Virus record (IMG/VR): IMGVR_UViG_3300022707_000213
Location: 1-39,079 of that record
Direction: 5' to 3' (one strand)
Length of the DNA: 39,079 bases
From: a virus
Shown here piece after piece: positions 6,256 to 10,430 of the stretch (within the stretch, counting starts at the first letter, position 1; each line of letters begins with the position of its first letter). Made by a program: the position numbers and the translations under genes. A model generated the notes under the pieces. It searched no databases and had not been told where the DNA came from. It was given only the letters and a program-made list of their open reading frames with translations.

Positions 6256-6276
6256 AACAATGAACACATCAACAAT
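6256..6276 (+). repeat. 21-bp exact direct repeat, copy 2
   Basis: Second copy of 5986-6006, across the start codon of the CAP-domain gene. Recombination between the copies would delete 270 bp and leave an intact MNTSTI start on the downstream gene. Confidence 0.9.
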
Positions 6277-6763
6277 AATATTAATAGTAACAATGATTAT
6301 ATCTTTATCGATACTTGCTTACATACTTATAAGTAATCAAAAGAGAAAAAAGAAAATAGTATTTGAGCAGAGTAATTGGTTTACATGGACTGAAAGGGAA
6401 GTAGAATTATTTGTTAAAATAAATAAACATCGCATAGCGAACGGTGCAGACTTATTATATGCAGATGATAGTATGTTTCAACTAGCAAACACCAGAACCA
6501 ACTTCTGGATAACTAACGACTACACGCATAAGGACAATTTACATGAAAACTTCTTTGGACATCGCCAAAAGTATATGGATATGGGACTACAAAATATAAG
6601 TGAGAATATTTCTTTTGGATATGAAAATACAGTATTTGAAAAGTGGGTAGAGAGTGAAAATCATAACAAAAATATGATTAAAAAGGAATGGGTTTATGCA
6701 GGAATTAGCATTGAGCGTAATCATAACGATAAATTGCTAGTATGTCTAATTCTCGCACGATGA
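6260..6763 (+). CDS. Membrane-anchored CAP/SCP-PR1 domain protein (YkwD-like)
   Basis: 167 residues. One N-terminal span (about 7-24) is followed by basic residues (KRKKK) and then a CAP superfamily domain. Visible signatures are the helix VELFVKINKHRIANGA, LANTRTNFW, GLQNISENISFG, a WVESENHNKNM stretch and the strand WVYAGISIER. In YkwD-type proteins these His/Glu residues line the cleft. The domain is predicted on the periplasmic face, where it could act on envelope components or inhibit a second infection; this is inference. CAP domains are uncommon in phages. The next gene starts by ATGA overlap. Confidence 0.75.
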   Translation: MNTSTIILIVTMIISLSILAYILISNQKRKKKIVFEQSNWFTWTEREVELFVKINKHRIANGADLLYADDSMFQLANTRTNFWITNDYTHKDNLHENFFGHRQKYMDMGLQNISENISFGYENTVFEKWVESENHNKNMIKKEWVYAGISIERNHNDKLLVCLILAR

Positions 6764-7320
6764 AAGAGATATTTAAAACAATACCTAATTATCCAGATTA
6801 CCAAGTAAGTAATTTAGGCAGGATTAAATCGATATCAAGAAGTATATTTAATGGTCATGGATATTTTAATTCTAAGGAAAAAATATTAAAGCCACAATTA
6901 GGAACTCATGGATATTATCATGTGGGATTATATTTAAACAACAATAGAAAAACCATTAAAATTCACCAGTTAGTTGCAATAGCTTTTTTAGATCACATTC
7001 CTAACAGGTATAAAATGACGGTTGACCATGTTAATAATATAAGGACTGATAATCGTTTAGAAAATATTCAGGTTATAACTCCTAGAGAAAATTCTAGTAA
7101 AGACAGGTATGGAGGAGCAAGTAAATATATTGGGGTTTGTTGGGATAAAGCACGTAAAAAATGGAAGGCTCAAATTAAAATTAACGAGAATCAAATTTTC
7201 TTAGGTCGTTACGAAATAGAATTACAGGCTAAAGAAGCGTATCAAAAAGGTTTAAAAAACATCGACACATACAATAGAAGCCCTAAAGACTTTAGGAAAT
7301 TAATCAATGAAATTATATGA
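6760..7320 (+). CDS. NUMOD4-HNH homing-type endonuclease with AP2-like domain
   Basis: 186 residues from the ATG in the ATGA overlap; a start 18 bp upstream also exists. Domains run NUMOD4 (IPNYPDYQVSNLGRIKS), HNH (KIHQLVAIAFL then MTVDHVNNIRTDNRLENIQ) and a C-terminal AP2-like DNA-binding segment (YIGVCWDKARKKWKAQI to AKEAYQKGL). This is the classic layout of free-standing phage homing endonucleases that spread into phages lacking them. It sits between the CAP and barrel genes in the same operon direction, so it behaves as an intergenic mobile gene. Confidence 0.85.
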   Translation: MKEIFKTIPNYPDYQVSNLGRIKSISRSIFNGHGYFNSKEKILKPQLGTHGYYHVGLYLNNNRKTIKIHQLVAIAFLDHIPNRYKMTVDHVNNIRTDNRLENIQVITPRENSSKDRYGGASKYIGVCWDKARKKWKAQIKINENQIFLGRYEIELQAKEAYQKGLKNIDTYNRSPKDFRKLINEII

Positions 7321-8163: not shown

Positions 8164-8255
8164 CCGATCAAAACAAACCAAATGTAGTAGCAACAGCGAT
8201 TATTTTACTAATTATTGAATGTATAATAGCAATTTTAATTATCCTAAATCTGTAG
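8160..8255 (+). CDS. 31-residue single-span membrane peptide
   Basis: Coupled by ATGA overlap. A short polar N-terminus (MTDQNKPNVV) precedes one long hydrophobic span. It ends in the recurrent AAATCTGTAG junction (C-terminal Asn-Leu). Confidence 0.45.
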   Translation: MTDQNKPNVVATAIILLIIECIIAILIILNL

Positions 8256-9611: not shown

Positions 9612-10430
9612 ATGACGCATGGATCACTATTTAGTGGAATTGGAGGATTTGATTTAGCGGCTCAATGGATGGATTGGGAAAACGTATTCCATTGCGAGTG
9701 GAACGAATTTGGAAAACGAATTTTAAAATATTACTGGCCAAAGGCTATAACTTATGACGACATCACCAAAACAGATTTCTCTATTCACCGAGGAAAAATT
9801 GACATCCTTACAGGGGGATTCCCTTGCCAACCATATAGTAATGCAGGAAGTGGCAAAGGTAAAGAAGATGAGAGACATTTATGGCCAGAAATGCTTAGAG
9901 CGATTCGGCAGATTAAACCAAAATGGATCGTGGGCGAAAACGTTTCTGGAATTGTTAGTTGGTCAAACGGATTGGTATTCGAAGAAATACAAAACGATTT
10001 GGAAATTGAAGGGTACAATATACAATCGGTATTATTTCCAGCTATCAGTATCGGGGCTGACCACATCAGAGAAAGGGTTTGGTTTGTTGCCTACTCCAGC
10101 AGCTTGGGACGGGAAAATGTACAAAGTAACACGAGAAGCAGCTCTAACTCGGTTAGCAACTCAAAAAGGGGAAGGAAGAAAACTTCGTGGTGGAAAAAAG
10201 AAACAGATGTCCTGGATCCATCATGCAATACTTTTCTACGGTTTCAAGAAATGTACGGCAAACCCCCAATTTTCGATGTGGATGATGGGCTTCCCTTTAG
10301 ATTGGACGGAATTACCGTTCCAAAATGGATTGAAGAATCACATAAAGGAGGAGGAAACGCAATAGTGCCACAAATGGCATTACAAATATTTAAAACAATC
10401 GAACAGTACGACTGTTCACGAAATCTGTAA
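9612..10430 (+). CDS. DNA C5-cytosine methyltransferase (Dcm-like)
   Basis: 272 residues. Motif I is GSLFSGIGGFDLA (4-16), motif IV GGFPCQPYS with catalytic Cys72, motif VI ENV (110-112), motif VIII HIRERVWF (151-158) and motif X GGGNAIVPQ (247-255). The region between VIII and X, where the target-recognition domain sits, is short (about 85 residues), low in hydrophobics and Ser/Asn-rich; a canonical motif IX is not obvious. No restriction enzyme is nearby, so an orphan methylase protecting phage DNA is the simplest role. A long +1-frame ORF lies inside it. Confidence 0.9.
   Translation: MTHGSLFSGIGGFDLAAQWMDWENVFHCEWNEFGKRILKYYWPKAITYDDITKTDFSIHRGKIDILTGGFPCQPYSNAGSGKGKEDERHLWPEMLRAIRQIKPKWIVGENVSGIVSWSNGLVFEEIQNDLEIEGYNIQSVLFPAISIGADHIRERVWFVAYSSSLGRENVQSNTRSSSNSVSNSKRGRKKTSWWKKETDVLDPSCNTFLRFQEMYGKPPIFDVDDGLPFRLDGITVPKWIEESHKGGGNAIVPQMALQIFKTIEQYDCSRNL
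9754..10365 (+). CDS. 203-codon ORF overlapping the methyltransferase in the +1 frame
   Basis: An ATG-initiated frame of 612 bp lies wholly inside the methyltransferase gene. The predicted protein has non-random features: GQKCLERFGRLNQNGSWAKT (44-63), a Trp/Tyr/Lys-rich stretch, GLLPTPAAWDG (110-120) and NPQFSMWMMGFPLDWTELPF (170-189). From memory, proteins with GSWAKTF, LLPTP and MMGFPxxWTxLPF occur in Bacteroidota phages near Dcm genes as hypothetical proteins. The MGFPLDW stretch resembles methylase motif IX (GFP). It may be a genuine dual-coded gene or a conserved shadow of the methylase; sequence alone does not settle it. Confidence 0.5.
   Translation: MTTSPKQISLFTEEKLTSLQGDSLANHIVMQEVAKVKKMRDIYGQKCLERFGRLNQNGSWAKTFLELLVGQTDWYSKKYKTIWKLKGTIYNRYYFQLSVSGLTTSEKGFGLLPTPAAWDGKMYKVTREAALTRLATQKGEGRKLRGGKKKQMSWIHHAILFYGFKKCTANPQFSMWMMGFPLDWTELPFQNGLKNHIKEEETQ
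10416..10429 (+). repeat. 14-bp exact direct repeat, copy 2
   Basis: Second copy of 9367-9380, at the 3' end of the methyltransferase gene; both encode a C-terminal Ser-Arg-Asn-Leu. Confidence 0.75.

Follow-up and report, generated by a model that had tools for sequence, protein, structure and literature searches.

Two-polypeptide cytosine methyltransferases

M.EcoHK31I recognises YGGCCR and M.AquI recognises CYCGRG. Lee et al. are said to have described, in 1995, a small M.EcoHK31I gene that is nested in the large gene in another reading frame. Both enzymes are biochemical precedents for C5-cytosine DNA methyltransferases (C5-MTases) composed of two polypeptides, according to PMC3404938 and PMC3439449. 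In PMC3404938, motifs I-VIII and X of M.EcoHK31I are assigned to the large subunit and motif IX to the small subunit, while the predicted target-recognition domain (TRD) is placed in the large subunit. C5-MTases that have been split artificially regain activity on reassembly (PMC3404938).

The locus examined here lies in a virus record of 39,079 bases (the window, that is, the whole stretch of DNA analysed), which carries terminase and portal genes. Judging from its sequence, it very probably encodes a heterodimeric C5-MTase of the M.EcoHK31I kind, made from two nested genes that are here called alpha and beta (Table 1).

Table 1. Features of the nested methyltransferase locus, in window positions
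Feature	Positions	Strand	Basis
Alpha, C5-cytosine methyltransferase catalytic subunit, 272 aa	9612..10430	+	Motifs I-VIII and X, no IX
Beta, nested gene in the +1 frame of alpha, 203 aa, putative target-recognition/motif IX subunit	9754..10365	+	
Alpha motif I, SLFSGIGGFDL, SAM binding, outside the overlap	9624..9656	+	Sequence; invariant columns among homologues
Alpha motif IV, GGFPCQP, catalytic Cys72	9813..9833	+	Sequence; invariant columns among homologues
Alpha motif VI, ENV	9936..9944	+	Sequence; invariant columns among homologues
Alpha motif VIII, RERVWFV	10068..10088	+	Sequence; R155 invariant
Alpha residues 170-235, VIII-X linker	10119..10316	+	AF2 pLDDT about 45-65, flanking domains >90
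Alpha motif X, GNAIVPQ, return to catalytic domain	10353..10373	+	Sequence; N249 invariant; AF2 helix 253-271
Beta variable region from LLPTP, best candidate target-recognition part	10084..10260	+	Wobble rates, amino acid identity
Beta motif IX, NPQFSMWMMGFPLDWT	10261..10308	+	hhalign to single-chain C5-MTases; alpha wobble suppressed, 0.130

The nested frame and its length

The beta frame is contained wholly within the alpha gene, begins with ATG and runs for 204 codons without a stop. Since an in-frame stop at 9748-9750 lies directly 5' of it, the ATG at 9754 is the earliest start available. An earlier note, made from the sequence alone, had drawn attention to this 612-bp open +1 frame inside the methyltransferase. 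The frame is confirmed, and its length is beyond chance in randomisations. When alpha was randomised synonymously 20,000 times with the codon usage of the window, no open run of this length appeared (median 40, maximum 119 codons), nor did one appear when its own codons were shuffled 20,000 times (maximum 192). A chance open frame was ruled out on this basis (0/40,000 in total). Among 25 other genes of the window, the longest stop-free run in the +1 or +2 frame is 71 codons. A test for conservation of the beta start codon was weakly positive, with a weak codon bias (TAT at 76% at the site vs 68% elsewhere).

The window has other features of its own. The sequence AAAWCTGTAG occurs six times, against 0.28 expected (positions 8246, 9158, 9372, 9594, 10762 and 23557). 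Most copies sit where a small gene ends, directly before the next start codon, and several genes consequently terminate in ...NL-stop or ...KL-stop. An HNH homing-type endonuclease with NUMOD4 and AP2 domains is encoded at 6742-7320 and adjoins a CAP-domain protein at 6260-6763.

Alpha carries the catalytic domain

Alpha matches Pfam PF00145 (DNA_methylase; 3.4e-41) over residues 2-176 only, as well as PHROG 363 (2.9e-64) and the sequences of M.HhaI and M.HaeIII. Its AF2 model has a pLDDT of 81, and the best Foldseek match of this model is M.HhaI (2.8e-15). All hallmarks of PF00145 are present, comprising the catalytic PCQ, ENV and RxR together with the SAM-binding FxGxGG. Motifs I, IV, VI, VIII and X had been correctly read in frame 0. 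Single-chain enzymes place their recognition domain and motif IX in the region that corresponds to alpha residues about 170-235, where AF2 predicts no target-recognition domain and pLDDT drops to near 50; the model becomes confident again at the motif X helix. This region between motifs VIII and X has no conserved consensus across homologues. The suspected lack of motif IX in frame 0 is also borne out, as a motif IX-like sequence is missing from 189 of the 191 distinct alpha homologues examined.

Three separate loci (L184, L087 and L165) have a stop and one extra codon in alpha motif IV, immediately before the catalytic cysteine (GGFP-stop-S/P-CQP). The remainder of alpha through motif X and the whole of beta are open in these loci. 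The interruption may reflect decay, a regulatory function or a DNA binder that no longer catalyses.

Beta carries a variable region and a motif IX-like end

Beta matches PHROG 1008, annotated as 'DNA methyltransferase' (1.9e-20), as do all 101 aligned betas, none of which has a family in Pfam or NCBIfam. A sequence search of the PDB with beta gave no match. The AF2 model of beta is poor (pLDDT 65, pTM 0.31). Foldseek found no match to it in the PDB with E <0.001, and in BFVD the best matches, which superpose poorly, are phage proteins that are uncharacterised or labelled as methyltransferases. The structure model is too weak to serve as a guide.

The C-terminal LNPxFVxxMMGFPxxWT of beta has its best local match at motif IX of 16 single-chain enzymes, although the stretch aligned by hhalign is short, at 22 columns (probability 12.5%; E 0.0023 in a single comparison). 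This placement agrees with the resemblance to motif IX that had been noticed in a GFP-x-x-W stretch. Longer betas (L190, L266, L254 and others) contain several repeats of a (L/W)PTPxAxD module in the variable region, which suggests that this region has grown by internal duplication. In L048 and L060, the beta frame continues into motif X without motif IX. This looks like a deletion with a frameshift, and function has probably been lost.

Co-occurrence of the two frames

Across 247 tabulated loci from viral contigs, phage records and bacterial genomes, including the window, both frames are present in every case and beta is always in phase +1. The association holds from either side: searches of viral contigs with alpha alone returned 80 loci, all 80 with beta in the same register, and searches with beta alone gave 80 viral and 80 bacterial loci, in all of which alpha surrounds the beta frame. 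At greater distance, the pair is carried by phages of Paenibacillus, Lactobacillus, Escherichia, Porphyromonas and Mycobacterium, among others. In the 740 genomes surveyed and the retrieved loci, every strong beta match came with an overlapping alpha. Within the phyla of Roseovarius (349 genomes) and Chitinophaga (346 genomes), all strong beta matches overlap an alpha, while the weak matches are to the +1 frame of single-chain methylases, mostly with stops. The shared catalytic domain alone is therefore insufficient to hold the frame open, and these genes serve as an internal control. Stops or frameshifts in the +1 frame of relatives had been named as a check on the nested gene; the frame is open in every related split locus.

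One Roseovarius genome assembly holds five copies of the nested locus (L219-L223) with identical match statistics, which are probably repeated prophages.

Selection on the overlap

Synonymous change in alpha is halved where beta overlaps it, at 0.189 inside the overlap vs 0.390 outside, and is lower inside in 90 of 94 independent pairs in which each locus was used once (p = 4e-17). The synonymous constraint on frame 0 for which the earlier note had proposed a check is thus strong. Fourfold third positions behave similarly where the alpha residue is unchanged: among 268 relative pairs, 0.195 differ inside the overlap vs 0.488 and 0.449 outside.

The rates also vary with position along the overlap. 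Around MMGFPxxWT of beta the usual order is inverted, as the wobble position of beta (0.209) changes more than that of alpha (0.130). In the variable region, the beta wobble (0.426) likewise exceeds the alpha wobble (0.368) and is the most variable position, and amino acid identity is higher in beta than in alpha, despite an alignment guided by alpha. When synonymous codons of alpha are shuffled in the relatives, the beta similarity score falls by z 4-10 in most loci and by a weaker z 1.7-2.8 in the most distant ones, and about 3-8 stops are added to the beta frame. Codon shuffles and position-specific rates together ruled out an untranslated shadow of alpha conservation. The sequence evidence shows that beta codes for a protein, is under selection and is linked to alpha.

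Relatives that are split differently

In two Brevibacillales genomes (L190 and L266), alpha ends soon after motif VIII, and beta comprises the variable region, motif IX and motif X in one frame. Provided that these loci are functional, alpha can do without its VIII-X linker, and the variable region makes up a single continuous unit with IX and X, the layout of single-chain enzymes.

The proposed enzyme and its alternatives

We infer that alpha and beta would assemble into one heterodimeric methyltransferase. Alpha would supply the large catalytic domain with motifs I-VIII, onto which the motif X helix packs back, and beta, starting inside alpha, would supply a small domain in which the variable region, for target recognition, is combined with motif IX. 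Methylation would be expected from the pair and not from either chain by itself; the two together would mark one short sequence, presumably shielding phage DNA from host restriction. Such an arrangement may have arisen through two frameshifts in a single-chain ancestor: one that moved the variable region, along with motif IX, to the +1 frame, and a second, compensating one that brought motif X back to frame 0. The prediction that beta is a subunit of the methyltransferase is made with high confidence. That it also determines specificity is probable, and less certain than the subunit role because PMC3404938 assigns the TRD predicted for M.EcoHK31I to its large subunit. Of the 'dual-coded partner or specificity subunit' that had been suggested for beta, the partner is supported by co-occurrence, synonymous constraint, the placement of motif IX and the re-split loci, while the specificity role is the more conjectural part.

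Part of the similarity of beta is imposed by alpha, as the +1 frame of single-chain Dcm genes weakly matches the beta model around motifs IV-VIII. The +1 frame could on these grounds be read as an untranslated by-product of strong codon and motif conservation in alpha. This is barely credible, however, given that stops are usual in the +1 frame of those single-chain genes whereas beta is open in all split loci, that synonymous suppression and position-specific rates require selection on beta, and that the enzyme in L190 and L266 is complete only with beta. Counter-defence genes are often clustered in phages, and the absence of a Pfam or NCBIfam family for beta might fit an independent effector, for example of anti-restriction, that merely overlaps the methylase. 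Such an effector is very improbable, since strong beta matches always come with an overlapping alpha in the genomes surveyed and loci retrieved, the motif missing from alpha sits on beta, and L190 and L266 have motif X fused to beta. The anti-restriction effector proposed in the earlier note for beta by itself consequently finds no support.

A further reading accepts beta as a real subunit but confines it to motif IX and a platform for binding alpha, with target recognition performed by the VIII-X region of alpha. The TRD placement for M.EcoHK31I in PMC3404938 favours it, as does the finding that beta is best conserved in its N-terminal half and at motif IX. Nevertheless, it is unlikely: the VIII-X region of alpha lacks a conserved consensus, is modelled with low confidence by AF2, is missing from alpha in L190 and L266, and changes mostly at the wobble position of beta. 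Recognition by beta within a heterodimer is thus the preferred reading.

Comparison with known systems

Alpha resembles the single-chain enzymes M.HhaI and M.HaeIII in catalytic fold and motif order, but in these the TRD, IX and X all lie in one chain. M.AquI is similar in having the catalytic half and the motif IX half on separate chains. It differs from the locus in the window, where alpha retains motif X and one gene lies within the other, in carrying IX and X on its smaller subunit; L190 and L266 share this same cut, with IX and X together on beta. M.EcoHK31I has, by its described motif layout, the same split and, reportedly, a small gene nested in an alternative frame. The present locus differs in lying in a phage, in having no neighbouring gene recognised as a restriction enzyme in a partial scan of the surroundings, and in that the variable region appears to be in beta, not alpha.

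The inner gene has already been recorded by several phage annotators. PHROG 1008, the 'internal gene' of Paenibacillus phages Lily and Redbud, and the 'Mte8-like' ORF29 of Escherichia phage K1ind3 represent the same beta family with the same nesting. These annotations give neither a mechanism nor evidence of selection. Among characterised bacterial enzymes, one, M.EcoHK31I, is known to have this arrangement, a precedent that the earlier note had not named, and no reports of other nested C5-MTases were found in the literature searched. What is new is the breadth of the family, which spans hundreds of phages and bacteria, and the evidence that the variable region is read mainly in the beta frame.

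Because fully overlapping gene pairs are often annotated as one gene, split enzymes are frequently logged as single 'incomplete' methylases, and an alpha expressed alone as annotated should be inactive. The family provides a very wide and directly testable case of long same-strand overlapping genes, and the location of target recognition in split methyltransferases becomes a simple swap question. On balance, we lean towards regarding C5-MTases with nested specificity as a major, largely unrecognised class in phages of Bacteroidota, Bacillota, Pseudomonadota and Actinomycetota, in which the +1 frame within the catalytic gene may encode specificity and which may have originated from a single-chain enzyme by compensating frameshifts.
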